Shown piece by piece: positions 47-28,936 of a stretch of 30,590 bases of DNA (the first letter of the stretch is position 1; the number at the start of each line of letters is the position of its first letter). The position numbers were made by a program, and so were the translations under genes. The notes below the pieces were generated by a model. The model searched no databases. It saw only the letters and a list, made by a program, of their open reading frames with translations, and had not been told where the DNA came from. This DNA is from a virus, in the IMG/VR virus record IMGVR_UViG_3300027791_003115, positions 1 to 30,590 of that record. One strand, 5' to 3'.

Positions 47-123
47 GTGCCCGTAGTTCAGTTGGATAGAATGTTGGTTTCCTAAACCGAAGGTCGCATG
101 TTCGAATCATGCCGGGCACACCA
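47..123 (+). tRNA. tRNA-Arg (anticodon CCU)
   Basis: A complete cloverleaf can be folded by hand. The acceptor stem is GTGCCCG (47-53) with CGGGCAC (113-119). The D-stem is GTTC/GAAT, and the anticodon stem TTGGT/ACCGA encloses loop TTCCTAA, giving anticodon CCT at 81-83. The T-arm is GCATG-TTCGAAT-CATGC (96-112). The discriminator is A120 and CCA (121-123) is encoded. It should read AGG codons. Phage tRNAs of this kind usually supplement host pools for codons that are rare in the host. Confidence 0.93.
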
Positions 124-824: not shown

Positions 825-1809
825 CAACGTTATTCCAAGCAATAGGGTCTTTACTGACACGCAGTATGGTTTGTTTGAATTCCTCTAACTCTGTAAATGT
901 CTGTGATGCAAAGTCAATATTTGTGTTCCAGTCCTCTATCTTGTTGAAGTAGACCCTGTCCACATTGTACCTGTGTCCTAGTGCCAGCATGGATTCTATC
1001 TCGTGCCAGTTGTCTTGTTGTACGACCATGTGCAGGCCAAAGTAGAAGTTGTGCTTTTGTTTGAGATCGGCCATGCACTCGAGGTTCTCGTTGATCTTGT
1101 CCCACTTGCCACCCAGTCTAAGTTTTTCATATGTTTCTTTACTTGCACCGTCGATGCTGACTCCCAGATCTTTGAGGTTCCGTATCACATTAGGAACACG
1201 AGTGTGGAACTCCTTGAACATGAGGCCATTGGTCAAGATGCTGTACTCGATGTTGTCACGCTCCGGTGTTTGCTCCATGAAGTGCCTGTACACGTGTGAG
1301 GCAAACGGATCACCGTCCGATCCTATGTGGACCTGTATGGGGTGTTTGAGATCATATAGCCAATCCAATATCCTGTCCGCGAGTCGTATGCCCAGGTTGT
1401 ATGCAGATCCTTCCTTGTGGAATATCATGCCTTTCCTACAGCTTGGACACCTCAGGTTACAGCTGTCATCTATTGCCAACCTTAGGTGCTGTAGGCGTTC
1501 CGACTGGCCATGCAACACAACATTAGACCTGATGTAGGAACACTGGTGTTCGTTGCAGTAACGATAAGAGCTGTCAGTGATGGAGCCCTGCAGGTGCTTA
1601 CGCATCGCATTGCCCTCGATAATCTCACCAAGCAGTTTGACCTGCAGATTGCCTATGCTCTGTGGCAACCATGACTGGCACTCACATGCATAGCAGGAAC
1701 CCATCTTGTCTATCAGTATGGTATCGAATGGTCTCGGACAACGTTTCTTTATCTGGAGATCCTTGGCAGTGTCGATCTTGTAGTGTTTGAACAGTCTTTG
1801 GTTGATCAT
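811..1809 (-). CDS. radical SAM protein with N-terminal cysteine cluster
   Basis: A 332-residue protein. The radical SAM 4Fe-4S motif CNLRCPSC (C-x3-C-x2-C) is at residues 117-124, followed by a TIM-barrel-like region with 'VSIDGAS', typical of the family. Six extra cysteines precede it (about 24, 39, 42, 44, 85 and 90), an arrangement seen when an auxiliary-cluster (SPASM/twitch-like) domain sits at the N-terminus. Such proteins are recurrent in marine T4-like phages; their substrate is unknown. I chose ATG at 1809 over TTG at 1815 because an AAGG lies 6 bases upstream of the ATG. It converges on the SGNH gene with a 14-base overlap. Peptide or cofactor modification is possible, but nothing here fixes the substrate. 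Confidence 0.75.
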   Translation of the reverse strand: MINQRLFKHYKIDTAKDLQIKKRCPRPFDTILIDKMGSCYACECQSWLPQSIGNLQVKLLGEIIEGNAMRKHLQGSITDSSYRYCNEHQCSYIRSNVVLHGQSERLQHLRLAIDDSCNLRCPSCRKGMIFHKEGSAYNLGIRLADRILDWLYDLKHPIQVHIGSDGDPFASHVYRHFMEQTPERDNIEYSILTNGLMFKEFHTRVPNVIRNLKDLGVSIDGASKETYEKLRLGGKWDKINENLECMADLKQKHNFYFGLHMVVQQDNWHEIESMLALGHRYNVDRVYFNKIEDWNTNIDFASQTFTELEEFKQTILRVSKDPIAWNNVVTLT

Positions 1810-1890
1810 GAGCAACCTTATTTACGGCCCACGTGGCGGGGTAGGGAGATTAATCTGGTAATAAAAATGTGTATCTAAGGTTGCAATTTT

Positions 1891-1898
1891 GATAAATA
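1891..1898 (+). promoter_or_regulatory. T4-type late promoter (GATAAATA)
   Basis: GATAAATA matches the T4-like late promoter (TATAAATA in T4, NATAAATA in marine relatives), which is read by the gp55 sigma factor with the gp33 coactivator. It is about 80 bases before the porin start and in the same orientation. Scanning both strands by eye, I found only one other full NATAAATA (8764-8771). Transcription should begin about 6 bases downstream, giving a leader of about 75 bases. Confidence 0.7.
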
Positions 1899-1914
1899 TG
1901 TCTTACAATCCAGA

Positions 1915-1936
1915 GCGAACACAGGCCAGTGTTCGC
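1915..1936 (+). promoter_or_regulatory. leader hairpin upstream of the porin gene
   Basis: A perfect 8-bp inverted repeat: GCGAACAC (1915-1922), loop AGGCCA (1923-1928), GTGTTCGC (1929-1936). It lies in the predicted 5' leader of the porin mRNA, about 10 bases after the expected start site. No T-run follows on either strand, so it is not a normal terminator. The loop contains the self-complementary GGCC, which could allow loop-loop pairing. mRNA protection or translational control are possible roles (inference). Confidence 0.6.
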
Positions 1937-1977
1937 ATTATCAATCTAAATCATAACCAAAAGGAAAAAACAAAGAT

Positions 1978-2910
1978 ATGATTAAGAACAATAAAAAGAA
2001 GATCGCAGTAGGTGTAGCGATAGTGGCGGCCATCGTAGCATGGTCACTGTTTAAACCAGCACCAGCCGAAGCGGCTGAAATTAATGTTTACGGTTCTCTA
2101 AACTACAGAATGGGGAATGACGAGGACGTTAATGGAAAATCAGTGCTGAAGGCCGAAGACAACGGTTCTAGCATTGGTGTTGACATCAGTGAAGAACTAG
2201 TTGACGGAGTATCAGGTTTCGCTAAAATAGAACTTGGTGTGGACACAGACGACACAGGATCTAACCCATTGGATTCAAAACTTGCTTACGCAGGTATTGA
2301 CATGGGACCATTAGGTAAAGTGTCAGCTGGTAGACAGAACTCTGTCTTCAAGAAAGTAACTGCAACAACAGATGTGTTCCCAGAATATGGAAACAAAGCT
2401 GTACAGAAACTTTTCTCTAGAGACAGTCACACTGTGGTTTACTCTACTGAGCTTGGAGGTCTTACATTTGACTCACTGGCTAAAGTAGATGGTTCAACTG
2501 GTAAATCAGGAGCAGACGTTATAGAATCAACTGTATCATATGATATGGGAAGTCTAACGCTTGTTGCAGGTATGTCAGATGACAAAGTTAACAATGTTGA
2601 CTACAGGGGTCTAGGGGCAACTTACAATCTGTCTGAAGCGACAACTGTTGCGTTTAACCACACTATCAAAGAAACTGCCGCAAATCTAGAAACAAAAGCA
2701 AATGAAGTAGCTGTGACTCACGTTATTGGTGATACTACGGTTGCTCTAGGATACGGTGAGATCAAAGATGGTACAGCGTACACTACGGTAGGGGCTACGA
2801 AGTCTATCACAGATAGCTTCTCTCTATATGCAGGATACGAAATGCAAGACAAAATCGCAGGTAGTAAAGATATCTCGGGTATGTCAGCTGGAATTAAGTT
2901 AACATTCTAG
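1978..2910 (+). CDS. Gram-negative outer-membrane porin
   Basis: A 310-residue protein. The N-terminus is a Sec signal peptide: Lys-rich residues 1-8, hydrophobic 9-24, and a likely cleavage near PAEA|AE at 32/33. The mature part starts INVYGSLNYRMG and alternates polar and hydrophobic residues throughout, as in beta-barrels. It contains 'YAGIDMGPLGKVSAGRQ', typical of Gram-negative porins, and ends GIKLTF, with the terminal Phe used for insertion by the BAM machinery. At about 277 mature residues it is on the short side for a 16-strand porin. It forms an isolated late unit: late promoter at 1891, hairpin at 1915, AAGGA 12 bases before ATG, terminator at 2922. The product would act in the host outer membrane. 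A cellular origin by transfer is likely. A receptor-altering or nutrient-uptake role is inference. Confidence 0.82.
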   Translation: MIKNNKKKIAVGVAIVAAIVAWSLFKPAPAEAAEINVYGSLNYRMGNDEDVNGKSVLKAEDNGSSIGVDISEELVDGVSGFAKIELGVDTDDTGSNPLDSKLAYAGIDMGPLGKVSAGRQNSVFKKVTATTDVFPEYGNKAVQKLFSRDSHTVVYSTELGGLTFDSLAKVDGSTGKSGADVIESTVSYDMGSLTLVAGMSDDKVNNVDYRGLGATYNLSEATTVAFNHTIKETAANLETKANEVAVTHVIGDTTVALGYGEIKDGTAYTTVGATKSITDSFSLYAGYEMQDKIAGSKDISGMSAGIKLTF

Positions 2911-2921
2911 TTTATTAATTT

Positions 2922-2953
2922 AAAAAGGGCGGTAGAAATATTGCCCTTTTTTT
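2922..2953 (+). terminator. bidirectional rho-independent terminator
   Basis: AAAAAGGGC (2922-2930) pairs with GCCCTTTTT (2943-2951), with a few extra G-T/A-T pairs inside the loop, followed by more T on the plus strand. It sits 12 bases after the porin stop. On the minus strand it also ends in a T-run about 20 bases after the endonuclease III stop, so it should end both convergent transcripts. Confidence 0.88.
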
Positions 2954-2972
2954 GTGACTGAATTATCTAATG

Positions 2973-3647
2973 TTATACTTTTTGACGCAACCGATTCTTT
3001 GGGATATCTATGTCTCTTCTATCACAAGCATTGGATATAACACACTCATTACAATTTGGTGTCCTGGATCTGCACACGTATTTGGCATGTGTTATCAACC
3101 ACATGTGTGCACCATACTTGTAGTCGCTTGGTGTTGTGTTATTCACTGTTATCGAGGCCTTGCCCTCGTCCAGGCTGTCTGCCCATCCTAGTCTCCACAG
3201 CATTCTAAACACGTGTGTGTCCACTGCTATGTGAGGTTCTCCGAAAACAAATCTCATCACTATGTCTGAACTTTTACGTCCAACACCAGGCAAACTCATG
3301 AGCTCTTTCTGTGTGTTTGGCACACGTCCATCAAACTCTTCTAGCAACATTTTACTGGTTGCTAGTATGTTTTTACTTTTAGCATTGAACAGTCCAGCAG
3401 GTCTGATTGCTTCTATTATTTCCTCTTGGGATAGCTTTATCATACCTTCTGGTGAGTCTGCTAACGCAAACAGTTGTCTACAAGCAACAGCAGTTCTCTT
3501 GTCTTGTGATTGAGCAGACAACATTACTCCTATCAGGCTGGTGTATGCTTTAGAGTATATTTTTGCTTCGGGTTTCTTGTTTGAATAGTTTGGGTAAAGA
3601 GAACTTAATTTCTCGTAGATAAATTTAATATCTTTATTGTTCTTCAT
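2973..3647 (-). CDS. nth: endonuclease III (base-excision DNA glycosylase/AP lyase)
   Basis: A 224-residue protein, close to the bacterial Nth length (about 211). The helix-hairpin-helix is LPGVGRK, with the catalytic Lys at K125. The GPD-loop catalytic Asp is D143 in AVDTHVFR. The C-terminal 4Fe-4S motif is intact: C192-x6-C199-x2-C202-x5-C208. It should remove oxidised pyrimidines and cut the resulting abasic site. Its start overlaps the end of the gp41 helicase gene by 14 bases, so it is probably co-translated with the replication helicase from the promoter at 5121-5149. T4 itself uses the unrelated DenV glycosylase, so a host-type Nth in this position is an acquired repair function. Confidence 0.93.
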   Translation of the reverse strand: MKNNKDIKFIYEKLSSLYPNYSNKKPEAKIYSKAYTSLIGVMLSAQSQDKRTAVACRQLFALADSPEGMIKLSQEEIIEAIRPAGLFNAKSKNILATSKMLLEEFDGRVPNTQKELMSLPGVGRKSSDIVMRFVFGEPHIAVDTHVFRMLWRLGWADSLDEGKASITVNNTTPSDYKYGAHMWLITHAKYVCRSRTPNCNECVISNACDRRDIDIPKNRLRQKV

Positions 3648-5150: not shown

Positions 5151-5756
5151 TTAAAAAATTTTACCATCACACTTTTTACTGCCCGAACATATTTCTTTGA
5201 TCAAAAGCTGGATCTTGTCACTAGTTTCAAATTCGGGATTTATACCAAAGCATTGATATTTTGTATTAAAATTCTTCATTAACATGTAATTTGTATATTT
5301 GTTACCGCTGTAATCAGGATGTGTTTCCACACCTTCTTTATTTTTGTCTATGTAACTGGAAAGCATCCATCCAATTATAGTTTCATGATGTAGATTTGTT
5401 TCCAGGGTCTTGATCAAGAAATACGGTAATTGACAACTCAACCAATAACTGTGACCCCAACTTTTGACGAGCCCCCATGTGTCAAGTGTATTTTTTGGTT
5501 GTGTAAAATCTATATTCGACAAACTAGAAGCATTTTGGTTAAAAAATATAAAGTCTACTTTATGGTTAATTTTTACAAGTATCTTGTGCAGTTTTATGAT
5601 ATCTAAGTCTTTCCATTCAATTTTGATGTTGTTCACTGTCTGTATCGCAGACGCACCTGAACCTATGTTGGTCACTGAATAACCGGCTTCTATACAGCCA
5701 TTCACAATACGTTCGCCTCTTTGATTGCCACACCCTATTAACAAAGCCTGCTTCAT
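5151..5756 (-). CDS. short-chain dehydrogenase/reductase-like Rossmann protein
   Basis: A 201-residue protein, somewhat shorter than typical SDRs (about 250). The N-terminus ALLIGCGNQRGERIV fits a first beta strand and glycine-rich nucleotide-binding loop. FFNQNASS lies where SDRs carry the NNA(G/A) motif, and YMLMK gives the Y-x3-K catalytic pair. Its start overlaps the stop of the radical SAM gene (ATGA, 5753-5756), so the two are translationally coupled and probably act in one pathway. The substrate is unknown. The pair looks inserted between helicase and primase. The Rossmann assignment is fairly safe; catalytic activity is inference. Confidence 0.58.
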   Translation of the reverse strand: MKQALLIGCGNQRGERIVNGCIEAGYSVTNIGSGASAIQTVNNIKIEWKDLDIIKLHKILVKINHKVDFIFFNQNASSLSNIDFTQPKNTLDTWGLVKSWGHSYWLSCQLPYFLIKTLETNLHHETIIGWMLSSYIDKNKEGVETHPDYSGNKYTNYMLMKNFNTKYQCFGINPEFETSDKIQLLIKEICSGSKKCDGKIF

Positions 5757-6898
5757 GTCAACTCCGGATAAAGTTTTCGCCAGTTAGATCCTTGTAAAAT
5801 ATCAATGTTATCGAAGTACTCCTTGTATTCAACACTACTGCCTTCTTTATCTAATTCCAATATACAGTTCTTAAGATTCCCGGCAATGTTCAAGTTATCT
5901 TTGTACTTTTCGAAAGTATTATTTAGATTTTCTCGAACCAAACTTTTAATTTCGCTGGACAAATTACGGCAACGTAGGTGGTATTGTCCCATGCCACAAG
6001 GATTAATTGTGTGATCAACACTGCCAATTTCTTCCATGAAGTAATCAATGATTTCTGGCAGTTGCTGGGCGGTCAACACAAAGAACACAGTGTTAGCCCT
6101 GAGGTCAACGTTAGGCTGGCCCTGTAAAAACTTTACGTTTTCGATTGTTCTGTTCCAATTGGCACCTCGTCTTATGTAATTGAATTTTTCGCCCGTCCCG
6201 TCTATGCTACAAGTGAACAATACATTTGGAAATTTAAGTATTTCCTGTACTATTTTATTATCTTGTTTCCACTGCATGTTCGTATTCACCCTGATAATTA
6301 GGTCTGGCCTTTTTTCGATCTGCTTTAATAATTTAAGGTTATATTTGATCAATGTAGGCTCGCCACCACTTAGGTAAATTTCTTTCAGTCCACTTTGATT
6401 GGCAGTAACAAACTCGATAATCCGATTAGCAGTTTTGGTCGGGGTGTGTTGCACTGGCTTGTTCTGTTCTCGGGCAATACTACTGCTTTGTCCAGCCCAG
6501 CAAGTAACACATTTTAGATCACAGGTACTACTCCAGTGTAAATCCAATGCCGAAAGTTCAAACTGAGACACGTCTGTGTAATCCACACTGCTGTGTACAC
6601 CCAACCCGTTATAATGGCTTCGTAGGCCTTTGAATTCACCAGCACTGGAAGTGTTCTCCCTCTTTAAACAATTTCTACAGTTATCTGTTATCTTGTCCTC
6701 GAGTATTTCTTTTCTTAATGATTTAAATTTCTTATTAGGTAATATTTCAGTGATATCATGCTCCTGCAGGTTTCCCATGACACCTCCGTGTGTACACGAG
6801 CTAATTGACCCGTCGACTCCTACATATAATAGGTTCCACGGAGCTGTACAGAAATGCTTACGTTGTCTAAAAAGTTGATATTTTTGTTTGGGATTCAT
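5753..6898 (-). CDS. twitch-type radical SAM protein
   Basis: A 381-residue protein. The radical SAM cluster motif CDLKCVTC is at residues 126-133, followed by LSGGEPTL (about 176-183, SAM binding) and 'CSIDGTGEKFNYIRRG', typical of SPASM/twitch relatives. Cysteines C17, C35, C74 and C77 (the latter in CRNC) lie before the core and probably bind an auxiliary 4Fe-4S cluster. This N-terminal-twitch layout is common in marine T4-like phages, with unknown substrates. It is coupled by an ATGA overlap to the SDR-like gene downstream. The neighbourhood looks more AT-rich than the helicase and primase genes beside it, which fits a later insertion. A function in modifying a metabolite or nucleotide sugar is speculation. 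Confidence 0.82.
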   Translation of the reverse strand: MNPKQKYQLFRQRKHFCTAPWNLLYVGVDGSISSCTHGGVMGNLQEHDITEILPNKKFKSLRKEILEDKITDNCRNCLKRENTSSAGEFKGLRSHYNGLGVHSSVDYTDVSQFELSALDLHWSSTCDLKCVTCWAGQSSSIAREQNKPVQHTPTKTANRIIEFVTANQSGLKEIYLSGGEPTLIKYNLKLLKQIEKRPDLIIRVNTNMQWKQDNKIVQEILKFPNVLFTCSIDGTGEKFNYIRRGANWNRTIENVKFLQGQPNVDLRANTVFFVLTAQQLPEIIDYFMEEIGSVDHTINPCGMGQYHLRCRNLSSEIKSLVRENLNNTFEKYKDNLNIAGNLKNCILELDKEGSSVEYKEYFDNIDILQGSNWRKLYPELT

Positions 6899-9154: not shown

Positions 9155-9306
9155 CTTTTATCTTTTTCAATATACTTTTTATAATATATGGTCAGCGGAC
9201 TATTTGGCTGATAAGAATCATTACATTCACTTGGATATATCTTTTGGATAGGCTTCTTAAATTTTTTGGAGAGTTTTTTAGCGAGTTTTTTAATCTTGTG
9301 TTGCAC
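9151..9306 (-). CDS. possible small lysine-rich protein
   Basis: A 51-codon ORF with GTG start at 9306, overlapping the last 17 bases of the mini-DnaE gene in another frame and ending TAG at 9151-9153, inside the end of the plus-strand gene. The product begins VQHKIKKLAKKLSKKFKKP, so the first 20 residues are about half lysine and could form an amphipathic basic helix. Start/stop overlap is the rule in this operon, which supports translation. The A-rich sequence alone could, however, produce such an ORF by chance. A DNA-binding or membrane-active role is speculation. Confidence 0.4.
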   Translation of the reverse strand: MQHKIKKLAKKLSKKFKKPIQKIYPSECNDSYQPNSPLTIYYKKYIEKDKS

Positions 9307-9877
9307 TAAAGCTATATTTAGCACGTGCTATCAAATTCATCTGTACCACAATTGCCTGTGCATAAGCCACTGCATGTGACTTCTTGAAGAAGTAGGATCG
9401 GTCAGTGGGTTTAGTCCATACTTCCCTTGTTATTTCTTCCCACTCTTTGTACATCAGCTGTCTCTTGGCAGGACGTATTATTGCCAACACTGCCGCCAGT
9501 TGCTCTATGGTTCTTGGTTGTAGTTTGGACACTATGTTGTAATGGCCATTTAGGTGGAAAAGGTTTTCAACTATCTTTGGATCGTTCAACATGTCCCAGT
9601 CTGGCTCCTGTATCATCAGTTCAACAAGTTCCTGTTCTGATTTGACTTCCTTGTAGATATTGACATTCAAACAGTCTATCTTGAAGTACCCTCTGTCCTC
9701 TGCGTTCTTGTAATCCAACGAAGCGTGCCCTGTGATAGGGTGTTCTGGTACAGCATGGAAGTACACCCCTGTCTTGTGTTTTTCGGACTTGCCGTCTTTG
9801 ATCATCGATGCAGGTGTGTGCTTGAACAATTTTAATGTGCTGTCCCTGTCAACGAAATCTATGTCTACATCAGGCAT
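9290..9877 (-). CDS. miniature DnaE-like (C-family DNA polymerase) core protein
   Basis: A 195-residue protein. It starts at MPDVDIDF, matching the PDxDxDF motif that carries two catalytic Asp of bacterial Pol III alpha (here D5 and D7). GYFKIDCLNV at 63-72 matches the 'GLVKFDFLGL' segment with the third catalytic Asp (D68). 'LQPRTIEQLAAVLAIIRP' (119-136) matches the DnaE region 'L+P..FED+.AL.AL.RPGP'. FKKSHAVAYA (164-173) matches FNKSHAAAYA. The order is the same as in DnaE, but the total is about one sixth of its length. PHP, most fingers, beta-binding and OB parts are absent. It is TAATG-coupled to the 77-aa gene before it. Polymerase activity is not shown; it could be a trimmed polymerase, a decoy or a repurposed fold. 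Confidence 0.72.
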   Translation of the reverse strand: MPDVDIDFVDRDSTLKLFKHTPASMIKDGKSEKHKTGVYFHAVPEHPITGHASLDYKNAEDRGYFKIDCLNVNIYKEVKSEQELVELMIQEPDWDMLNDPKIVENLFHLNGHYNIVSKLQPRTIEQLAAVLAIIRPAKRQLMYKEWEEITREVWTKPTDRSYFFKKSHAVAYAQAIVVQMNLIARAKYSFSATQD

Positions 9878-11946: not shown

Positions 11947-13425
11947 CTAGTTGTACAGTAGATTTTGTTTTTTATTTTTATAATTTTCTGATAATCTAAC
12001 CAACTGCTTGAAGTCATCTTCCATTTTTGGTTGGTTATATCCCAGCTCGTCGCCTATTTTTAACACGTCTATTAACCTAAGCAATCTAGTTTTTGGATTA
12101 TTGCTTTTGTTTGCAGGAGTAGACCATAGGAAGGAAGCAGTAGGCATATGATCGTTATGATTAGTAAGTGTTTTGTTCTCTTCCATGTAGAACTTGAAGT
12201 GTTCCATCATCTTTGGTGAAGTTATAGGTGTGTCTGGTATCAGGTGCATCGGAGTCCAGCTTATTAATTCGATGATGCCTAGTTTAGCATACATGGAATA
12301 TTTTTCTAGGTCCATTAAATTTTTCTTATGGTCGGCATCGGTCTCGGTAGGATAACCGCTTATCATTAAAAATATATTAGGTACATTCCAATAGGCACAT
12401 TGTTCTAAATGGTATTGTACATCTGCATCGCCAAATTTCTTACCCATATGGTCTCGAACAGAATTAGAAAAACTTTCTATCCCTATGGTCAACTGTTTAC
12501 AACCAGCGTAGTACATGGCTTCATAATGATGTTCAGGCATTTGCCTTTTAGGCCTACAAATGAATTGTCCCATGTATGTTACGTCTTTTAGATCATTATT
12601 CTTTTGTTTTTCGTTTGCCATTATCTCATTGAACTTGTAGAACTGTGACACAGAACCGTTTATAAGACTGTCTGTAAATTCAAATGTCTTTATACCGTGT
12701 TCGCTGACTTGTTTCTTTATTTCGTCCACTAAAGATTGCCCAGACCTGAATCTAAACTTAGGCCATATGTTACCTATATCACAGAACTTACATTTTCTCA
12801 CACAGCCACGCGAACCTGTGATGTACAGTTTCTTTTCTGAATAGTCATCAAACTTTACACCGCCGTATGAGGGGAATGGATACGAATCTAAATTTGATTC
12901 GTCGTACTTTATTTTTCCATTTGATAGAAGCGTTGCTAATGGATTCTCTCCTTCGCCTATCAACAAGTGTTCTATAAATTTTTCTTTTTTATTCCATTCT
13001 TCAAAATATATGTCAGTATCTGGAAACTTACTACTACATCCGTTGCCTCCGACAACTAACTTGTAGGGACGTAATTTATTTGATTCGTGTGTAATAAGCA
13101 GTCTGGCTATGTACATGGTCCAATATGAAAACACAGATATCATCATGTATTCACAGCTATCTGGCAAGTGTTCTTGCACAGCTTTGTCCCATAGTCTTAT
13201 TATTTTTCCTTCAAGCTCTCTTGGTATGGTATCTGTGAGAAACTTACACCAGTGGTCCACCTTTAGCCATTCGTCTGCTGTCAAGTTGTTGTAAAGATAA
13301 ACATTGAAGTCAAGCGTGTTTGTATCAAAATGTTCTGCCTCACACATGGATCTTAGTATGCCTATCGCGGCGGGCGTTGCATGGAGATCGTACTTTGGTA
13401 GATTAACTAATAAGGCAGATTTCAT
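11947..13425 (-). CDS. B12-type radical SAM protein
   Basis: A 492-residue protein. Residues about 1-180 resemble a cobalamin-binding-type Rossmann domain ('TPAAIGILRSMCEAEHF', 'YKLVVGGNGC', 'LLIGEGENPL'), though the classical D-x-H-x2-G motif of base-off B12 proteins is not evident. The radical SAM motif CVRKCKFC is at 208-215, followed by 'FTDSLINGS', 'LTIGIESFSNSVRDHMGK' and ISGYPTET, typical of the B12-binding radical SAM family that includes methyltransferases and MiaB/BchE-like enzymes. It lies inside the replication operon, overlapping the 147-aa gene upstream by 4 bases (ATGA type). The substrate is unknown; it may modify a glycan, lipid or nucleotide. Confidence 0.78.
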   Translation of the reverse strand: MKSALLVNLPKYDLHATPAAIGILRSMCEAEHFDTNTLDFNVYLYNNLTADEWLKVDHWCKFLTDTIPRELEGKIIRLWDKAVQEHLPDSCEYMMISVFSYWTMYIARLLITHESNKLRPYKLVVGGNGCSSKFPDTDIYFEEWNKKEKFIEHLLIGEGENPLATLLSNGKIKYDESNLDSYPFPSYGGVKFDDYSEKKLYITGSRGCVRKCKFCDIGNIWPKFRFRSGQSLVDEIKKQVSEHGIKTFEFTDSLINGSVSQFYKFNEIMANEKQKNNDLKDVTYMGQFICRPKRQMPEHHYEAMYYAGCKQLTIGIESFSNSVRDHMGKKFGDADVQYHLEQCAYWNVPNIFLMISGYPTETDADHKKNLMDLEKYSMYAKLGIIELISWTPMHLIPDTPITSPKMMEHFKFYMEENKTLTNHNDHMPTASFLWSTPANKSNNPKTRLLRLIDVLKIGDELGYNQPKMEDDFKQLVRLSENYKNKKQNLLYN

Positions 13426-16769: not shown

Positions 16770-17252
16770 ATGAAAAAAATAAAGAAGAAAAAATACAGCC
16801 AAAGGAAAATATTACAGATCAAGTTAGAAAATACTCTGACTAGACGCAAGAATATCACAGGATTCAAACCCACAGTATCACTTGCAAACTACTGGTTCAA
16901 TCAGTTGAACACAGGATTATTCAACAGTAAATTACCAACTGTTCCTCTTTATATCTTGAGAATGACCGGGGACTGGGGAAGATGCTGGGCCAATTGGGAT
17001 AATAGGAAGTGCAGGAAAGGTACATTTGATCAGAGTGTGATCCCGTATGGTAAATGTGAAATTGATTTTGCTATAGAACTACATTCAAAATATCCTACAT
17101 GGAGAGACTTCATTGAGACACTGGCACATGAGATGGTGCACCTATACCAAATGACTATAATACAAGATCCGTATTCAAATCACAACGCTAACTTCTTTGC
17201 CTTTAGAAATAAATTTAGATTAGCAGGATTAAATCTTTCAAGAACTGGTTAG
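16770..17252 (+). CDS. SprT-like zinc metalloprotease
   Basis: A 160-residue protein. HEMVH (H120, E121, H124) is the zinc-binding HExxH motif, and NHNANFFAF (137-145) gives the third-ligand region seen in SprT ('GH...F'). The N-terminus is very Lys-rich (MKKIKKKKYSQRK), suitable for DNA contact. SprT/Spartan proteins cleave proteins crosslinked to DNA; phage versions are common in marine T4-like genomes, though their targets are not known. It is divergent from the UvsW operon and overlaps the convergent gene at 17238 by 15 bases. A DNA-repair role fits the neighbouring UvsW and endonuclease III. Confidence 0.85.
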   Translation: MKKIKKKKYSQRKILQIKLENTLTRRKNITGFKPTVSLANYWFNQLNTGLFNSKLPTVPLYILRMTGDWGRCWANWDNRKCRKGTFDQSVIPYGKCEIDFAIELHSKYPTWRDFIETLAHEMVHLYQMTIIQDPYSNHNANFFAFRNKFRLAGLNLSRTG

Positions 17253-18008
17253 TACAGTATCTTCAAACTCTTTGTAACTTATAACATTACTGTTCCCTAG
17301 GTCGGTGCCTGTCTGTAGGTAATGTAAGTACTCCGGAGGATCATCATGTACCACAGTGTAATTTACATAAGGCCTCATCTTAAGCATGTCTCTGAATTGC
17401 TTCAGCCATCCGTTCATTATGTCTCCGCCGTTTCTTTCACCATAGTTCTCTGTGTCTTGATAGATGTTGTTTAGTTCACCCGATCCATATTCTCTGAAAT
17501 CGTATCCCACTAGGTAGATGTTCTTGTGTCCGTGTACTCCTGCTGTCCAGAATGACGAAGAGCCGGTCACCCAGTGCGGGTTATTTGGTATCAGATGTAG
17601 GTATGGAGGTCCGCCCCTAGGGTGTCTATTCACTTCCAATGAAGGTGCATAATGCATCGATTTCTCGTACACTTTCTCTTTAACCATTTCTAGCGTTATT
17701 GGAGAATCAACAGAAAAAATAAAGTCAGGCATGAAATCTCTGTACAGTGCATTGCACCCGTATGTCTGTCCTGAGGCTTTGAGTTTAGCCAGGTCAAAGC
17801 CTTTACGTGAAGGGCCATTTCCTATACAGTATGCGTTGCCGTGTGGTTTTGCTTTTACTCTGTCTTCGTAGAAAGCAGTCTCTTGTATCCTTTCTCCCTT
17901 ACGTATTATGAGATGTGTGTTGACTGTCTCGCCCTGATACTGTTGCCACTCTATAGGCTCGATTGGTGTTGGGCCACCAATTGTTTTACCGTTAATTGTT
18001 ATTGCCAT
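17238..18008 (-). CDS. MptE/DUF115-like Rossmann protein, putative sugar transferase
   Basis: A 256-residue protein. After about 65 N-terminal residues, 'CIGNGPSRKGFDLAKLKAS' (about 61-79) followed by GCNALYRDFMPDFIFSVDS matches the DUF115/MptE-like fold found in glycosyltransferases of flagellin and surface-polysaccharide loci. 'TGSSSFWTAGVHGHKNIYL' with LVGYDF is also typical. The N-terminus MAITINGKTIGG resembles the start of phage structural or tail-associated proteins. It is the last gene of the minus glycan operon, and its start overlaps the stop of the GT-B-like gene at 18008. The reaction is unknown; nucleotide-sugar transfer is the best guess. Confidence 0.6.
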   Translation of the reverse strand: MAITINGKTIGGPTPIEPIEWQQYQGETVNTHLIIRKGERIQETAFYEDRVKAKPHGNAYCIGNGPSRKGFDLAKLKASGQTYGCNALYRDFMPDFIFSVDSPITLEMVKEKVYEKSMHYAPSLEVNRHPRGGPPYLHLIPNNPHWVTGSSSFWTAGVHGHKNIYLVGYDFREYGSGELNNIYQDTENYGERNGGDIMNGWLKQFRDMLKMRPYVNYTVVHDDPPEYLHYLQTGTDLGNSNVISYKEFEDTVLTSS

Positions 18009-18880
18009 TATAGATACTTCTCCTCTAGTCTCTTTTTAATTCTGTTCCATGGTAGCCCCTGTTGTATTTCATCTGTCCACCATTCTGTGTATGCTAACTT
18101 ATTTGCCCAGTGTTGTCTATCGGGCATGTTAGGATTGTTAATATTTTCAAATGATTTATTACCAACATCATAGCTTAGACTGGCCTCCGAAACATATACG
18201 GGTATGCCTGAGAATGCCGCGGTCATGGCAGGATTGCTTGAGTGACTTATCACTGCCCATGCTGACTTCAATCTCTCTGTAAGGTCAGTGTCGTCGTATG
18301 TGTTCCTATCTCTTTTGGGACCTACTATCTTTACATCCTTGTACTTCGCAACATCTATTGCAACGTGATTCCTAGGATGCGGTCTGACTACAATCGGTTT
18401 ACTGGTGTACTTCCTTATCTCTGTGATCTGCTGGTTGAACCATGATGACATAGGAGGGTTGTTCCTCCACTGGTGACTGTTTGTGTGTTGTCCGCATAAT
18501 ATTATGTTATTGCCTGTCTGCTTCCATGGCTTCATTTCTATGCCAAACTTTTTCCAACGGTTTGCATCTACGCTGTCGTTAGCAAAGTCGGCTTCTCTGT
18601 TAACACCATTGATTCCTATCTTCCATGTCTCGTTTCTTTTTATGCCGCCCACTTCTATCACAACGACAGGTTTATTTTTATTCCTATAGGAATTCCATAT
18701 GTTACGATACTTTGCCATTCTACCCTGCCATAACACCGACCATATAACAGCAACATCACACTGTCCGTCGTCCTTGTTGACAAACACAGTGTCCCCTGCC
18801 TGCCTCATACTTTTTATAAATGCCTCGAACACAGGCTTAGAATTTAATGGTCCATAATCTGTAAAGCAACTTACTTTCAT
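18008..18880 (-). CDS. capsule-type GT-B-like protein (paralogue A)
   Basis: A 290-residue protein. The second half has PIVVRPHPRNH (about 168-178), AWAVISHSSNPAMTAAFSGIP (about 211-231), then PDRQHWANKLAYTEWWTDEI. The same R-x-[HK]-P, (V/I)(S/T)xxSx(A/P)...(G)(I/V)P and 'LAYxxWxxxEI' pattern recurs in three more genes here (21499, 23316, 26722). Similar motifs occur in capsular polysaccharide proteins of the KpsC/KpsS and CDP-glycerol transferase type, where the conserved His/Ser region binds the nucleotide donor. It overlaps neighbours by 1 and 4 bases. It probably adds a sugar or polyol phosphate to a surface glycan. Confidence 0.65.
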   Translation of the reverse strand: MKVSCFTDYGPLNSKPVFEAFIKSMRQAGDTVFVNKDDGQCDVAVIWSVLWQGRMAKYRNIWNSYRNKNKPVVVIEVGGIKRNETWKIGINGVNREADFANDSVDANRWKKFGIEMKPWKQTGNNIILCGQHTNSHQWRNNPPMSSWFNQQITEIRKYTSKPIVVRPHPRNHVAIDVAKYKDVKIVGPKRDRNTYDDTDLTERLKSAWAVISHSSNPAMTAAFSGIPVYVSEASLSYDVGNKSFENINNPNMPDRQHWANKLAYTEWWTDEIQQGLPWNRIKKRLEEKYL

Positions 18881-19746
18881 CTGTTCTTCCAGTAGTCTAT
18901 TTTTTTTAGTTCCGGTGTTTTTCTTATGTCATCTGCCTTGGAACTTTTTGAATCTTTACGGTCGCCTTTGAAGTGATCTATGTACTGTCCAAGTTCACTG
19001 TTTACGAACACATGATGACCCTTCACTCCTTTTGAATAGCCTATGTCATGTACTTTTGCTGAATGCTTCTGTCTGTATTTTTTTGTTAGGTGCCAGAACA
19101 CATATGAATCGTGCCATTCCAAAAGTTCAAATATATCTGCAGATGTGTAAAGTTTTTCCCAGTCATTGACAAAATTTTGTACCAAGCTGTGTTTCATGTT
19201 GTAACATACAAGTCCACACTCAGGATATTTGTTACTACCACGATCATTTTCTCTGTCTAGATACGTCACTAGTGTATCGTTAGGACATATGCTTTCTATA
19301 AATTGCATAGGTATATCTCGGAATGTGTATGTATCGTCATCTATCCATATCACGTAATCGTAGTCTGTATAAGACTTTACAGCATGTGTTACGCAAGACA
19401 CTTTATAACTGAACTTGACTGCGTCCCACAGATATGATTCTTTCTTTGCATCAAGCCCGCCTTCTGTTGCTAACCTAGGCGAACGCCTCACTCCTCCTGG
19501 TATTTCGTTCAGTTTTCCCATCGCGACAGGATCATTTTTGTAGTGCTCTCGGAACTTTTGCAGTCCTGTGTTTGCTTTGTCTATGTCTATCCATGTCACA
19601 TCGTGTTCAAAATCTGTAGGTTTCTGACCTTGATAGTACACTGTAACATCGGCACCTATCCACCTGTCCAACACAGACTGAACCATCCTTTTTGCATACC
19701 TGTCCCAATTGCCTGGTTTGAAGGTTGTTATTACTTTGTATATCAT
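18877..19746 (-). CDS. GT-A-fold glycosyltransferase
   Basis: A 289-residue protein beginning MIYKVITTFKPGNWDRYAKRM, a beta strand and nucleotide-sugar-binding start. WIDDDTYT (about 134-141) holds the D-x-D metal motif of GT-A enzymes. 'NKYPECGLVCYNMKHSLVQ' and 'ELLEWHDSYVFWHL' fit acceptor-binding parts. No membrane segment, so a cytoplasmic enzyme acting on a lipid- or protein-bound acceptor. It overlaps AsnB and the paralogue A gene by 4 bases each. The sugar donor cannot be told. Confidence 0.7.
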   Translation of the reverse strand: MIYKVITTFKPGNWDRYAKRMVQSVLDRWIGADVTVYYQGQKPTDFEHDVTWIDIDKANTGLQKFREHYKNDPVAMGKLNEIPGGVRRSPRLATEGGLDAKKESYLWDAVKFSYKVSCVTHAVKSYTDYDYVIWIDDDTYTFRDIPMQFIESICPNDTLVTYLDRENDRGSNKYPECGLVCYNMKHSLVQNFVNDWEKLYTSADIFELLEWHDSYVFWHLTKKYRQKHSAKVHDIGYSKGVKGHHVFVNSELGQYIDHFKGDRKDSKSSKADDIRKTPELKKIDYWKNR

Positions 19747-21497
19747 AATTTTATTTTATATTTTTTTATCCAGTCGTTAATTATCCATGCTGGCACAAGT
19801 GCCTTGCCTGCTTTCTGACTGGTCTTTACGATATCAAGACCGCCCTCGCCTGTTAATGCTTTGTTGTAAAAGTCAAGTAGTCTTGTGCTAGTAGCTTTTG
19901 TTAACCAATACCCCAGTGGCACTGTCCATCCTGTCTTTTCTTTTTTAATAATGAAACCCGGCAAATGATTTAGATATGCTTTTTTAGTTGGCATTTTTGT
20001 ATTTGCTTTGTTGCCTCCTATTTTATCCGAGACCGGTATACTCATACAGTACTCCATGAACATCTTTGTTGCTAAGGGGAATCTACCTTCCATGCCATAT
20101 GCCATTCCAAATTTATCATTCCTGTTAAAGAATTCCTCGGGTACCTGTGTGACACAATCCAGCGCCATGTATGAAGCTACCGGATCCTCAGGATTCCATA
20201 GGTCATCCGGATAACATTTTTTAAGTTCTTCACACACTTGTTCTCTTGATAGTGTTGCACCCATTGTAGTGCCTGAGATTGGACGTTTGATCCTCTGCAC
20301 CCATAAAGCTAAAACATCGTCCCATGACTCCAATTGTTCTTTACCTATCATTTTTTTAAGATAATCCGGTTGTCTCATCTTCCAGTACTTGGGATATCCA
20401 CCCAATATCTCATCTCCCATGTCTCCGGCCATTGTCACTACAATACCGTTGTCATGCAGAACTTTATTGGTGTAACAGTACATGGCAATGCTTTGGTTGT
20501 ACATGGGTTGCTCCATGTAGTATATTGAATCATCCCAACTGTCTATGATATTGTCTGGTGTGATCTTAACAACTGTGTGATTGTAGCCTTCTACCTTTGC
20601 CAGTTTCTCGGCCGCATCGGCATCGCTGTTGAAGTTTTCTTCTGTGATAATATTGGGTTTCATCTTGTTCGTAAACGTTACTGCAGGTCCACTTATCATG
20701 TTTAGTTCATGTGCAATAAGACTTGAGTCCAGGCCGCCACTTAAGAACACCCCTATCTTTCTTTTTCCTATGCTACACATCTTCACAGTCTTCCTGGCCA
20801 TGTCTTTAAATTCCTTAGCGTTGAACTTGTGATTGCTTGTTGGCTTTATGAATACTCTTTTTGTTTCTACAAATTTTTTATTTTTGATATCGTAAACTTT
20901 AGTCTCCCCTGCTAACAATTTCTTTATCCCGCTGAACACAGTATTACGTGTGGCATTGATACCGGTCCATGCAAGACAACTCATGGCCAGCTGATTAATA
21001 GTACGTGCATTTGGCACCTTTTCCAACATGCCCTTTATCTCTGATCCAAACACTAATCCCTCGTCTATCTCTGCATAGTAAACAGGTTTTATACCTGCAT
21101 GATCTCTGCTCAATGTGATTTTGTTCTCATCAATTTCATAATATGCAAACCCATGCATGGAGTCTATCTCATCAATAAAGTTTAACCCAAACTTGTCTAA
21201 CCCCCAAGCAAGTAGCTCTGTGTCGCAACCAGTCGTGTCGGCAAAGTCTTTATATTTTTCTTTTAGTTCGTAGTAGTTGAATATCTCTCCGTTGTACACA
21301 AGCATGTTGCCCTTGGGGGTCTTCCATGGCTGTTGTGACTGATCGGGTGATGCCATTATACTTAAAAGATTGTGTCCTAGCGTGACTGTGTCAGATGTCC
21401 AAACACTCTCTCCATCTGGTCCTCTGTGCTTACAAATGTCTATGAAGCTTTGTATAAACTCAGGATCCTTTGCTGTTATTCCGTATATCCCACACAT
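19743..21497 (-). CDS. asnB: asparagine synthetase (glutamine-hydrolysing), AsnB type
   Basis: A 584-residue two-domain protein of normal length. The glutaminase domain begins MCGIYG with the N-terminal Cys nucleophile, HRGPDG (24-29), NGEIFN (69-74) and D92 in GCDTELL. The synthetase domain has the PP-loop SGGLDSS (253-259) and GDMGDEILGGY. One oddity: where E. coli AsnB has HERLSIVD, with Arg49 contacting glutamine, this protein has GHNLLSIM, with Leu44 at that place. In glycan loci AsnB-like enzymes may amidate sugars (as in WbpS-type proteins) rather than make asparagine. Its place in the middle of the glycan operon favours that (inference). A plain asparagine supply is the alternative. 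Confidence 0.9.
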   Translation of the reverse strand: MCGIYGITAKDPEFIQSFIDICKHRGPDGESVWTSDTVTLGHNLLSIMASPDQSQQPWKTPKGNMLVYNGEIFNYYELKEKYKDFADTTGCDTELLAWGLDKFGLNFIDEIDSMHGFAYYEIDENKITLSRDHAGIKPVYYAEIDEGLVFGSEIKGMLEKVPNARTINQLAMSCLAWTGINATRNTVFSGIKKLLAGETKVYDIKNKKFVETKRVFIKPTSNHKFNAKEFKDMARKTVKMCSIGKRKIGVFLSGGLDSSLIAHELNMISGPAVTFTNKMKPNIITEENFNSDADAAEKLAKVEGYNHTVVKITPDNIIDSWDDSIYYMEQPMYNQSIAMYCYTNKVLHDNGIVVTMAGDMGDEILGGYPKYWKMRQPDYLKKMIGKEQLESWDDVLALWVQRIKRPISGTTMGATLSREQVCEELKKCYPDDLWNPEDPVASYMALDCVTQVPEEFFNRNDKFGMAYGMEGRFPLATKMFMEYCMSIPVSDKIGGNKANTKMPTKKAYLNHLPGFIIKKEKTGWTVPLGYWLTKATSTRLLDFYNKALTGEGGLDIVKTSQKAGKALVPAWIINDWIKKYKIKL

Positions 21498-21498
21498 A

Positions 21499-22482
21499 TT
21501 ATAATCCTAATTTCTTTTTGAATCTCTTGAACACTGTACCGTCCTTTATCTCTGCCTCGGTCCATTGTTTGTAACCAAGGTCGTACACCCATTGATCCCT
21601 GTCAGGGTATTCGGGTGTTTCTATGTTTGATAGATCTTTGTTTGCTACAGGCCAAGCGAGTGCAAGATCTGAGGTAACAAAGGTAGGGATTCCACGAATG
21701 CAGGAATCGATACAGGCAGTAGAATTGTGAGTAACAACAGCATGACAATTATTCAATGCGTCCTGGTAGTTGAATCTATAATGCTTTTTTTCATCTCCCT
21801 TGAAAAACTTCTGTCCTATCACTACCTGTACATCTGCGGGGAATTCGTTTATTCTTTTCTCTATTGCGGCAACATGATTGGGGTGTGGCCTAACTATAAA
21901 TTTTCTGTCTGTCATTGGCCTCAGTTTTTCATACACATCATTAAACCACTTGATAGGATCTAGCTCGTTCATGCTCCAGTTGTCCTGTGGTTGTAGCACA
22001 AACAGTATCGGGTCTTTTTGATTTGATTTCCTCCATGGAGCGTAGTTTATATCCCAAATCTTTTTCATTTTTTCCCATCTGTCAGGGGGACTGTTGTCAC
22101 TTAAGAAGTTTCCGTTGTTCATTGGTGAGTACAGTGCCACACGCCAGTGATGATTGGCATCTGTTATTGTGTTGCCAAAGCTGGACATTATTCCACCGTC
22201 GAATGTTATTATGTGTATGCCTTTCTTCTTTGCACGTTCTACTAGGTCTCTTCTGCGTCCTTTCGTGTGGTGCATCTGGTTAGTTCCTCCGTATCCAAAC
22301 ATACATCCAATTGGTGCCGTAGGTTCCATTTCGTTTTTATCCCATGGTCCTACTTTATTTTCGTTTACAATGACCGGTTGGTCGCCACATGCCTTGATTC
22401 CCGTGGCCATGTGTTGCAGTAGATCCCAACTGGCACCTCTACGCCTGTCCTTCACTGTCCTTCTAAATATCTCAACTTTCAT
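21499..22482 (-). CDS. capsule-type GT-B-like protein (paralogue B)
   Basis: A protein of about 327 residues, the largest of the four paralogues. It shows FIVRPHPNH, then CHAVVTHNSTACIDSCIRGIP and 'PDRDQWVYDLGYKQWTEAE', the family pattern, plus a longer N-terminal half with FGYGGTNQMHH and TFDGGIMSSFGN. I prefer the ATG at 22482 because AAGGA lies 9 bases upstream; the ATG at 22488 would be only 3 bases from it. It overlaps the FkbM gene and ends 1 base before AsnB. A glycosyl or polyol-phosphate transferase role is inference from KpsS-like motifs. Confidence 0.65.
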   Translation of the reverse strand: MKVEIFRRTVKDRRRGASWDLLQHMATGIKACGDQPVIVNENKVGPWDKNEMEPTAPIGCMFGYGGTNQMHHTKGRRRDLVERAKKKGIHIITFDGGIMSSFGNTITDANHHWRVALYSPMNNGNFLSDNSPPDRWEKMKKIWDINYAPWRKSNQKDPILFVLQPQDNWSMNELDPIKWFNDVYEKLRPMTDRKFIVRPHPNHVAAIEKRINEFPADVQVVIGQKFFKGDEKKHYRFNYQDALNNCHAVVTHNSTACIDSCIRGIPTFVTSDLALAWPVANKDLSNIETPEYPDRDQWVYDLGYKQWTEAEIKDGTVFKRFKKKLGL

Positions 22483-23326
22483 ATGCATCTTTCCTTATAA
22501 AAAGCATTTCCAACATCAGTTTGTCTCTTTTCCTGTTTATCACGACATCATAGTTGTTTACCTTGAACTTGTCGCATAGTATCTGTGCTTTCTCCAACGC
22601 TGGTTCGACCTTCTCATCCTTCTCAAAATTTAACTCAAGTTCCATTGCTAGGAACTTAAAGTCAATCTTCTTGTCTAACAACTCATGACCAAACTCCCAC
22701 CACAAGCCTTCTATGTCTGCTTTGAGTATATCAACACTTGATAGGTTAAGCTCTCTCATTATAGTTTCTAAATTTTTAGCCTTTACATCCACGGACTCAA
22801 AGTGTTCTTGTCTTTTTACTAGGGAGTAACTTTGTTCTAGGTTACGTACAACTTCCTCCTTGCTCCTCTTCTTCCCGTTTATCTTTAACTGCCCCGGCTC
22901 ACGTTCCGGATCGTAGTAGAAAGGCAGTGTGCCGTTTACCTGGGCATATGCGACAGGGTTAAAATGTAGTCTTTTTGAAATGGACACGTTTTGATGACCA
23001 GAAGAATCTGACTCGTCTCTAATTTTTTTTCTACTTGATCCTCGTATAATTGTACGTATCAATGCAACACTTCTTGGAGTTGGGTCATATAATTCGGCCT
23101 GTATGTCCTTGTTGTCCCATGCTAGTTCCTTTTCAAATCCAACATTGCCTCCCACACCAAAACTCAAAACGGTCTTACTAGTCTTTGCAATAGATTCCGG
23201 AACAAAATAGTTTTTGTACAATTTGAATCCTTTGAGATCCTTTGCCTCTTTGAAATTGTTCTTATTTTCCCAATCTCTTATTAGTTTGACTCTCTCAATT
23301 ACATGTGATTTCATTCTATCTGCCAT
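22472..23326 (-). CDS. FkbM-family methyltransferase-like protein
   Basis: A 284-residue protein. VLSFGVGGNVGFEKELA (about 51-67) sits at the SAM-binding glycine-rich loop, AELYDPTPRS matches the acidic residue ending strand 2, and VDILKADIEG (about 200-209) is the FkbM hallmark (VDLLKIDVEG). Next comes FLAMELELN. FkbM enzymes O-methylate sugars and related natural products. It overlaps genes on both sides, by 11 bases each. A second FkbM protein lies at 28294 in the other arm. A capping or modifying methylation of the glycan is likely (inference). Confidence 0.75.
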   Translation of the reverse strand: MADRMKSHVIERVKLIRDWENKNNFKEAKDLKGFKLYKNYFVPESIAKTSKTVLSFGVGGNVGFEKELAWDNKDIQAELYDPTPRSVALIRTIIRGSSRKKIRDESDSSGHQNVSISKRLHFNPVAYAQVNGTLPFYYDPEREPGQLKINGKKRSKEEVVRNLEQSYSLVKRQEHFESVDVKAKNLETIMRELNLSSVDILKADIEGLWWEFGHELLDKKIDFKFLAMELELNFEKDEKVEPALEKAQILCDKFKVNNYDVVINRKRDKLMLEMLFIRKDAYES

Positions 23327-24131
23327 CTAATATCTCCATGTAATACCCGCTTCTAAATTCTTCCTGTGTGAATTGGTTGTAGGCAAGACTGTGCAACACA
23401 GGTCTCGGATCCTCGTATCTCGGTGTTTCTATCTTTGAGAAGTCCTGTTCACACACTGGTAAACAAGGATTGTCAAAGTTAGCAAACGCTGGTACGCCGT
23501 TGGTAAGTGCTTTAATTGATATAGAACTGTTGAAGGTCACAACTGCATGGACCTTGTCCCACTCGAATGGCTTAGGCGGTTTGTTATTGGCACTCTTACC
23601 AGGCACCATCTTTCCCTCTCCGTCTATAACCGCTTTAGGATTGTAAGGTTTCTCTCTCACAATAATTTCTCTGTCTGTGTTATCTTTTAAAACTTTCATT
23701 GTGTTGTCCAACCAATCCTTACCGTCAAACATCTCTGCCATGGCATGGCTAGGTGGCACTACCAACACATACGATCCGTTTTTATGGAAAGGCTTTATCT
23801 CATCCTTGTATTGTATCTTGAACCTATCATCTGGTCTGTGATCAACAAATGTTTTGACGTGTTGATTCTTAACACATCTCATCCAGTAAGGAGTTGCCCT
23901 GCTTTCTCCCCAGTAAGGTCTGTCTATGTAGTAGAAATCTTTTTTATTATCTTGACAGTGTTTGTAAACTAGATGTGTACCACGCAAGACTCCCATGAAC
24001 ACAACTTTATCAAAATCAGTTGTACTCAACACTGTTTCGTAGTTTGTAAGTTTACAGTTTGTAATTCCCCTTGACGCACTCTCGACATATTTTTCAGTGT
24101 TGGGCCTTTCAGTTCTCACAGCATAATTCAT
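23316..24131 (-). CDS. capsule-type GT-B-like protein (paralogue C)
   Basis: A 271-residue protein. It has FYYIDRPYWG, GSYVLVVPPS, EIIVREKPYNP, HAVVTFNSSISIKALTNGVP and SLAYNQFTQEEF, the family pattern. It is closest to paralogue D at 26722 (GSYILVCPSS, SLAYQQFTPEEF, WFTDTPYFG), so the two probably arose by duplication, though they lie on opposite strands. His in the R-x-H-P motif of A and B is replaced by Lys here (REKP). Its start/stop touches the 2OG oxygenase gene at 24131. Sugar or polyol-phosphate transfer is the likely activity. Confidence 0.65.
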   Translation of the reverse strand: MNYAVRTERPNTEKYVESASRGITNCKLTNYETVLSTTDFDKVVFMGVLRGTHLVYKHCQDNKKDFYYIDRPYWGESRATPYWMRCVKNQHVKTFVDHRPDDRFKIQYKDEIKPFHKNGSYVLVVPPSHAMAEMFDGKDWLDNTMKVLKDNTDREIIVREKPYNPKAVIDGEGKMVPGKSANNKPPKPFEWDKVHAVVTFNSSISIKALTNGVPAFANFDNPCLPVCEQDFSKIETPRYEDPRPVLHSLAYNQFTQEEFRSGYYMEILDGR

Positions 24132-24898
24132 TATCTTACCTCTTGCACGTTGTACATTGTTGAATAACCTCTTTTGAATTCTCCAATTATGTTCACGCTT
24201 CTCCTGTTGAGTGTTGCATTTTGTCTCAGAGATACTCCGTGTACAGTGTTAGGTGAATTATTTGCAAACATCACAAATGTATTCCTCTTGTAAGGTATTG
24301 TTTTGACTACAGTGCCAAGGTCACTATCATAAATTTGCCTTCCGGCCTTCTTGTTAACTTTCTGCACATTTGACTGTGTTGAATAAATTTGGAATTCTCC
24401 ACCTGTACTTTGATCATTTGGATACGGCATGTACAACAATCCTGCCCACATCTCCATTGGATTGTCTATGTGAGGTGTACGTGTGGTTTTTTCTTCTATG
24501 GGTTTGTGCATGACCAATTGACAATCAGTCCATATGTTTTTATTTTCGTCTGCCCAACCTCTTGCACCCAAGTCGTCCTCTGTGAATGTCTTGTGCAATA
24601 CGTTTGGCATGTAAGGTTTGAATAGCTCATTTACTTCGTTGAACCATTCCGCAGATGTGTGATACTTTGTGAATTCTTTCCATACTCCAGGCATGTTTTC
24701 TTTTGGATTCAATATTTTGTCTGCCTTCAATCTATAACAGATGTTGTTGTCGTAAGCATTTTTTTGTTGCAAGACCATTGACTCTGGGAAACTGTTTTCT
24801 AGTGCCTCGTAGAGATCCCATGGTAAGGCGTCTTGTATGATCACGTGTGGGTAAGGATCTGTCTGTACTGTTGGTTTTTTCTGTAATAATGAATACAT
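24131..24898 (-). CDS. 2-oxoglutarate/Fe(II)-dependent oxygenase
   Basis: A 255-residue protein. HID (H143, D145 in TPHIDNP) and H220 (NTVHGVS) make the iron-binding facial triad, and R232/R233 (NRRSVNI) would hold 2-oxoglutarate. The double-stranded beta-helix region spans about 125-240. Such oxygenases are frequent in cyanophages and relatives, and most have unknown substrates. Among glycan genes it may hydroxylate a sugar, lipid or peptide acceptor (inference). It follows the GT61 gene by 19 bases, a gap with a TATAAT (minus strand) but no clear -35, and overlaps the next gene by 1 base. Confidence 0.85.
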   Translation of the reverse strand: MYSLLQKKPTVQTDPYPHVIIQDALPWDLYEALENSFPESMVLQQKNAYDNNICYRLKADKILNPKENMPGVWKEFTKYHTSAEWFNEVNELFKPYMPNVLHKTFTEDDLGARGWADENKNIWTDCQLVMHKPIEEKTTRTPHIDNPMEMWAGLLYMPYPNDQSTGGEFQIYSTQSNVQKVNKKAGRQIYDSDLGTVVKTIPYKRNTFVMFANNSPNTVHGVSLRQNATLNRRSVNIIGEFKRGYSTMYNVQEVR

Positions 24899-24917
24899 GG
24901 TTATATTATAAGTGATA

Positions 24918-26012: not shown

Positions 26013-26032
26013 GGGTTTGTTTAGTGTATAAT
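26004..26032 (+). promoter_or_regulatory. divergent promoter region of the glycan island
   Basis: Plus strand: TTGCGA (26004-26009), a 17-base spacer and TATAAT (26027-26032), a fair sigma70-like promoter whose start near 26039 leaves about 6 bases before ATG 26046. On the minus strand TATAAT-like sequences occur in the same AT-rich gap, about 30 bases before the GT61 start, without a clear -35. The two operons diverge from here. Confidence 0.55.
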
Positions 26033-26045
26033 TAATTATTATATT

Positions 26046-28923: not shown

Positions 28924-28936
28924 CGTAAATAGACAT

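Follow-up and report, generated by a model that had tools for sequence, protein, structure and literature searches.

A porin gene of marine T4-like bacteriophages is the payload of an expression cassette that encodes a small unrelated protein in other phages

Phages commonly use porins as receptors, and small molecules enter the cell mainly through them. For the porin Lc encoded by the lambdoid phage PA-2, superinfection exclusion has been proposed as a role. Lambdoid phages and P7 encode porins of the NmpC/OmpD type and thereby resemble the phage analyzed here, but they are temperate phages of enterobacteria, unlike our phage. Judged from annotations, E. coli phages encode porins that closely copy those of their hosts. 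The transcript of the DLP12 phage porin yields the sRNA ipeX, a controller of host OmpC, as described in an excerpt of PMC12197685. Moreover, marine virus contigs with an OmpL porin gene beside glnK-amtB, i.e., with a nutrient operon, carry a porin described as Flavobacteriales-derived in an excerpt of PMC8115048; such an operon is not present in our sequence. The closest isolate protein to the porin studied here is the porin of Pelagibacter phage HTVC008M (37.5% identity over 91% of our protein), where gp042 is already annotated as "outer membrane porin".

Our porin gene lies on a virus record of 30,590 bases (the whole stretch of DNA that was analyzed, hereafter the window), together with genes for a DnaB-like helicase, a primase and a UvsW-type helicase. 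These gp41-, gp61- and UvsW-type genes bear out the original prediction, made from the sequence alone, that this is a T4-like phage. The best isolate matches of the two helicases, at 48–55% identity, were the jumbo phages PA5oct, Atu_ph07 and Phosso and not HTVC008M; the phage is hence T4-like in a broad sense, yet distant from isolates. The porin ORF is flanked on both sides by minus-strand genes, i.e., a radical-SAM gene (811–1815) and an endonuclease III gene (2973–3647), and is therefore the solitary gene it had been taken for (Table 1). Scans of IMG/VR for porin relatives yielded 28 and then 58 loci, several of which were fragments or one contig found twice. In most of them the porin has a radical-SAM gene on one side and gp41 on the other, and it may point either way with respect to gp41.

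The endonuclease III-type repair gene adjoins gp41 and at that place is kept in some relatives and missing in others. Three radical-SAM-like genes are found on the minus strand (811–1815, 5753–6898 and 11947–13425), the first two assigned by Pfam and the third by eye, with no PHROG match for the latter. The first two also have relatives close to the porin in other loci. A minus-strand ORF (9290–9877) matches a PHROG DNA polymerase family and resembles part of a DnaE of the bacterial type. Larger pieces of it occur in L246, L242 and L302, and related loci contain another piece after endonuclease III, so that the polymerase may be split. A long run of genes (17238–30588) appears, by eye, to have sugar, methyltransferase, AsnB-type and NAD-epimerase functions, possibly for surface glycans.

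Table 1. Coordinates of the features, in the window unless another locus is named
Feature	Position	Strand	Basis
tRNA-Arg, anticodon CCT	47–123	+	
Composite promoter: TTGCAA 1881–1886, ATAAATA 1892–1898, TACAAT 1904–1909	1881–1909	+	Motif matches, upstream alignment
Hairpin in the leader RNA (8 bp, AGGCCA loop)	1915–1936	+	Fold and covariation
Purine-rich ribosome-binding-type AAGGA	1961–1965	+	By reading, unscored
Phage porin gene, 310 aa	1978–2910	+	Porin_4 E 7e-20; 16-strand barrel; Z 28.0 to Omp32
Putative leader (signal) peptide, about 33 residues	1978–2076	+	Alignments; cleavage site placed by eye; common to mini protein
Constriction loop L3, residues 120–150, PEYGN motif	2335–2427	+	Model (between strands 5 and 6); entropy
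Intrinsic-terminator-like hairpin followed by T-run	2922–2951	+	Fold of 2908–2960, z −3.97
Mini protein ORF, mature part 89–90 residues	L269: 13217–13582	−	
Mini protein ORF, mature part 89–90 residues	L246: 16618–16986	−	
Mini protein ORF, mature part 89–90 residues	L242: 16346–16711	−	
Mini protein ORF, mature part 89–90 residues	L264: 11535–11900	−	

The window ORF matched the Pfam families Porin_4 (72.5 bits, cut-off 27, E 7e-20) and Porin_1 (49.3 bits, cut-off 23.7, E 6e-13), i.e., above the curated cut-offs and far beyond chance, in agreement with the real Gram-negative porin that had been predicted. An AlphaFold2 model built from 33 phage sequences (pLDDT 77.7, pTM 0.70) is a 16-strand barrel, counted from 17 listed strand segments of which 55–61 and 64–75 were taken as a single bent strand. 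The structure prediction proposed beforehand as a check on the barrel fold was thus positive, and the model includes a loop L3. With Foldseek and VIA-align, the model matched Omp32, OmpU, OmpT, PorB and OmpF/OmpC at 15–23% identity. The best structural match was Omp32 (Z 28.0, rmsd 2.3, 276 aligned residues), and Omp32, OmpU and PorB all gave Z scores of 27–28 over about 270 residues. The window porin shares the 16 strands, L3 and the C-terminal Phe with Omp32, OmpU, PorB and OmpF/OmpC (Z 25–28); it differs from them in being phage-encoded, in its mature chain of 277 residues and in the low sequence identity given above. In the model, L3 comprises 31 residues with short helices and is predicted to fold into the lumen. 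A profile alignment to OmpK36 spans its PEFGG stretch, which we take to be the L3 motif, and PEYGN is the equivalent in the window porin. At the N-terminus, a putative signal peptide was assigned by pattern, with a Lys-rich start, a hydrophobic stretch and a long c-region ending in KPAPAEA-A before the mature part. Residues P27, A32 and F310 were unvaried across the 33 phage sequences, so that the terminal Phe noted earlier is a constant feature, here within the β-signal-like ending GIKLTF. We conclude that the window gene encodes a genuine Gram-negative general porin with 16 strands.

Upstream of the gene, a conserved σ70-like pair, TTGCAA/TACAAT, is separated by 17 nt, and this spacer contains the T4-late-type motif ATAAATA. 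In 20 aligned porin upstream regions of the main subclade, GTTG, ATAAATAT and TACAATCC were unvaried, and GTTGC was conserved at a level of at least 90%. ATAAATA occurs twice in the window versus 8.0 copies expected, and the second copy (8770–8764, minus strand) lies upstream of a gene whose PHROG match is virion-structural. The motif was found at most 160 nt upstream of 37 of 38 porin genes including that of HTVC008M, all of them related sequences and hence not independent. Among 37 distinct cassettes (27 with porin and 10 with the mini protein described below), taken from loci fetched partly via the porin itself, ATAAATA was intact in 35 and broken in L026 and L246, where the outer boxes are kept; the same survey gave one chance match that had neither promoter nor hairpin. 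In another subclade (L022, L023 and L055), the porin is preceded by a full-consensus TTGACA-N18-TATAAT. The 842 kb of these loci contain 15 distinct full-consensus sites (spacer 16–18), six of them with ATAAATA in the spacer and located before a small ORF. These TTGACA-ATAAATA-TATAAT composites are found in L031, L035, L042, L049, L050 and L061, the small ORF starting with MRDTK or MRDTN; in L061, no ORF is listed downstream. The earlier description as a late gene therefore stands in part: ATAAATA is conserved, but it is embedded in a conserved σ70-like promoter, and late-only timing was not borne out. Judged by motif matches, a TATAAATA-type late promoter is not the sole promoter of the gene, and a combined early-plus-late promoter is plausible from the sequence.

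The predicted leader RNA hairpin starts 5 nt downstream of the TACAAT box. The region 1912–1980 folded with an MFE of −14.7 (z −4.57), and in a MAFFT alignment six of the eight pairs had changed on both sides and 99.6% of cells were paired; the covariation score was reached by none of 500 shuffles. An Rfam search of 1800–3000 gave nothing close to a gathering score. Both RNA elements named in the original prediction were thus recovered, the leader hairpin by its fold and strong covariation and the terminator by a hairpin with T-run, the latter not being listed by a consensus terminator scanner. In ompA mRNA, a 5′-terminal hairpin protects the transcript.

We traced gp41 through 80 further loci and found that at the porin's place some of them hold an ORF of 122–123 amino acids. 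This mini protein has the leader peptide, promoter and hairpin of the porin and ends in GFKxKF (e.g., GFKLKF). It was present in 15 IMG/VR loci, and by contig names the porin and mini protein lists from IMG/VR do not overlap in a single contig. The mini protein gave no Pfam match above the cut-off, none in phage records and no convincing match in PHROGs or among solved structures; an AlphaFold2 model from four sequences reached a pLDDT of 42 and was set aside. That it is a shortened porin was not supported, since hhalign aligned the mature parts with a probability of 14.7% (E 0.0018) and over the last 34 columns only. Among the gp41-fetched loci, 15 span the region from gp41 to the radical-SAM gene: four carry the porin, three the mini protein, eight neither and none both. 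As eight of 15 have neither payload, the function of the cassette is dispensable. Independently of the porin-fetched loci, the promoter pattern was searched for in the entire viral collection; of the 32 sites found, 24 lie before a porin and seven before a mini protein, one is too close to the locus end to be assessed, and none lies before any other gene. The porin is therefore the payload of a dedicated cassette, consisting of composite promoter, 5′ hairpin and leader peptide, that has a semi-fixed place in a group of marine T4-like phages, and this payload varies among phages between the porin and a C-terminally Phe-ending protein of 89 residues in its mature form. We would guess from the leader and the C-terminus of the mini protein that it enters the outer membrane. 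The two payloads might also differ in function and have only the expression site in common.

Both payloads are under purifying selection, with a median dN/dS of 0.15 for the porin (172 usable of 300 pairs, 25 sequences) as well as for the mini protein (21 of 55 pairs, 11 sequences); pairs with dS outside 0.05–2 were dropped. Mean column entropy in the porin was 0.30 bits for L3, the pore-defining loop and thus well conserved, 0.66 for the other extracellular loops, 0.77 for strands and 1.10 for periplasmic turns. The extracellular loops are not hypervariable, contrary to the prediction for an arms race in which the surface loops are at stake, and the conserved outer loops, together with the frequent lack of both payloads, speak against a strong arms race. 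Porin identity correlated with gp41 identity at a Spearman coefficient of 0.46 (325 pairs) versus 0.84 for gp41 and primase (300 pairs), in both cases with pairs that are not independent. In the distant phage L052, the porin shares 88% identity with its counterparts in L032, L034 and L035 despite gp41 identities of 77–79%, and the window porin is 55–61% identical to those of 25 compared loci regardless of gp41 identities between 76 and 91%. Because porin identity tracks gp41 poorly, and in view of the L052 case, we read these sequences as pointing to porin alleles that have been exchanged among subclades of the phages.

In a tree of 61 rows, 15 phage porins and the HTVC008M porin formed one clade (support 100/99) without any cellular member. 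SAR11 porins formed a separate clade (100/100), and NmpC of P7 likewise fell outside the phage clade, where it grouped with a cellular porin. The tree omits L218 (fused frame), L226 (the L223 gene; not extracted) and L330 (partial), as well as another seven SAR11 rows that were duplicates or nearly identical, and its cellular rows are a limited sample, partly picked by similarity to the phage profile. HTVC008M gp042, the clade-mate of the window porin, matches Porin_4 at 52.2 bits and has ATAAATA upstream at −99. It differs in its place, which is not beside gp41 but in a region of structural genes, where a hypothetical protein and small ORFs flank it; moreover, it is without the cassette hairpin, and its leader is shorter. 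The original prediction had expected phylogeny to identify donor and host, but there was no close cellular relative among those sampled, and even the HTVC008M porin groups with phage and not with SAR11 porins. SAR11 is unsupported as donor, as the A1 profile matched three of 197 Pelagibacterales genomes, weakly and in the C-terminal part only; Porin_4 matched 38 of 58. It is highly improbable that the phage recently took the porin from its own host, in the manner of the lambdoid NmpC type, in which case the donor would name the host. The window protein does have homologs among proteobacterial porins, and E. coli phages set the precedent for such near-copies; yet the best of 53 sampled cellular porins was 26.5% identical to it, the phage clade has no cellular member, and a scan of genome_contigs with porin peptide patterns found no relative. 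The phage-porin profile gave 18 matches at E 1e-6 or better in 398 sampled Pseudomonadota genomes, all distant, and recent bacterial capture or contamination was thus rejected. Judged from these sequences, the porin belongs to a phage-specific lineage and is no recent copy of a host porin, although given the limited cellular sampling a nearer cellular donor may exist.

What the cassette does can be put forward with some reserve, and we place the following reading just short of an even chance: porin and mini protein cassettes would remodel the outer membrane early and late in infection, most likely excluding competing phages, with the pore retained. Host RNA polymerase would use the σ70-like promoter early, the phage late machinery could use ATAAATA later, and the 5′-terminal hairpin would stabilize the mRNA. 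The leader would route the protein into the periplasm, its C-terminal β-signal would then bring it to BAM, and the outer membrane of the infected cell would gradually fill with phage protein. The altered cell surface would then stop competing phages from adsorbing, i.e., superinfection exclusion, and the porin form would additionally keep an open pore. Alternatively, the phage porin may replace decaying host porins and keep small nutrients entering during replication. In favor of this, L3 and barrel are under purifying selection, so that a working pore is kept, and the ATAAATA element would permit late expression. A viral OmpL porin next to amtB in other marine viruses points the same way, as far as the excerpt of PMC8115048 goes. 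However, no transporter or nutrient gene adjoins our porin, and the cassette of other phages encodes an 89-residue mature protein that is unlikely to be a diffusion pore; we regard this auxiliary nutrient pore as unlikely. Since such a payload is too short for a usual general diffusion porin, a change of surface or membrane is the likelier shared role.

Still less probable is that an abundant phage β-barrel burdens or jams outer-membrane assembly, through envelope weakening or competition for BAM, and aids lysis or a shutdown of host envelope synthesis. Both payloads do end in an aromatic β-signal-like sequence (GIKLTF and GFKLKF), their main common feature besides the leader, but a strongly conserved L3 is unnecessary for competing and no lysis gene was recognized nearby in the window; the earlier idea of a protein mis-targeted to aid lysis found no support. 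Least probable of all is that a porin-like fold serves here in the virion or tail, even though the other ATAAATA in the window precedes a virion-structural candidate, because leader and β-signal are predicted to indicate export, the fold is a 16-strand porin with L3, and the neighbors are replication and radical-SAM genes and no structural genes. Superinfection exclusion remains our best single guess for the role, with precedents among enterobacterial phage porins (PA-2 and ipeX). That a lineage of T4-like marine phages keeps a swappable outer-membrane cassette, encoding a phage-specific 16-strand porin or an 89-residue β-rich outer-membrane protein, with alleles mobile between subclades, in order to remodel the surface of the infected cell and exclude rivals, is conceivable, at somewhat less than even probability.

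Phage porins were known before, including that of HTVC008M, and the exchangeable cassette appears to be the new part: a limited literature search, with most subscription papers outside it, brought up no work describing a porin cassette in a marine phage. Our results suggest that a phage may encode a porin without having captured it recently from a host, so a host should not be named from the porin alone. A phage's own porin that is under selection and is swapped for a tiny unrelated protein under one control module offers a handle on how the surface of the infected cell is managed. A dedicated control element that drives either a pore or a tiny protein suggests a remodeling of the infected cell's outer surface by the phage.
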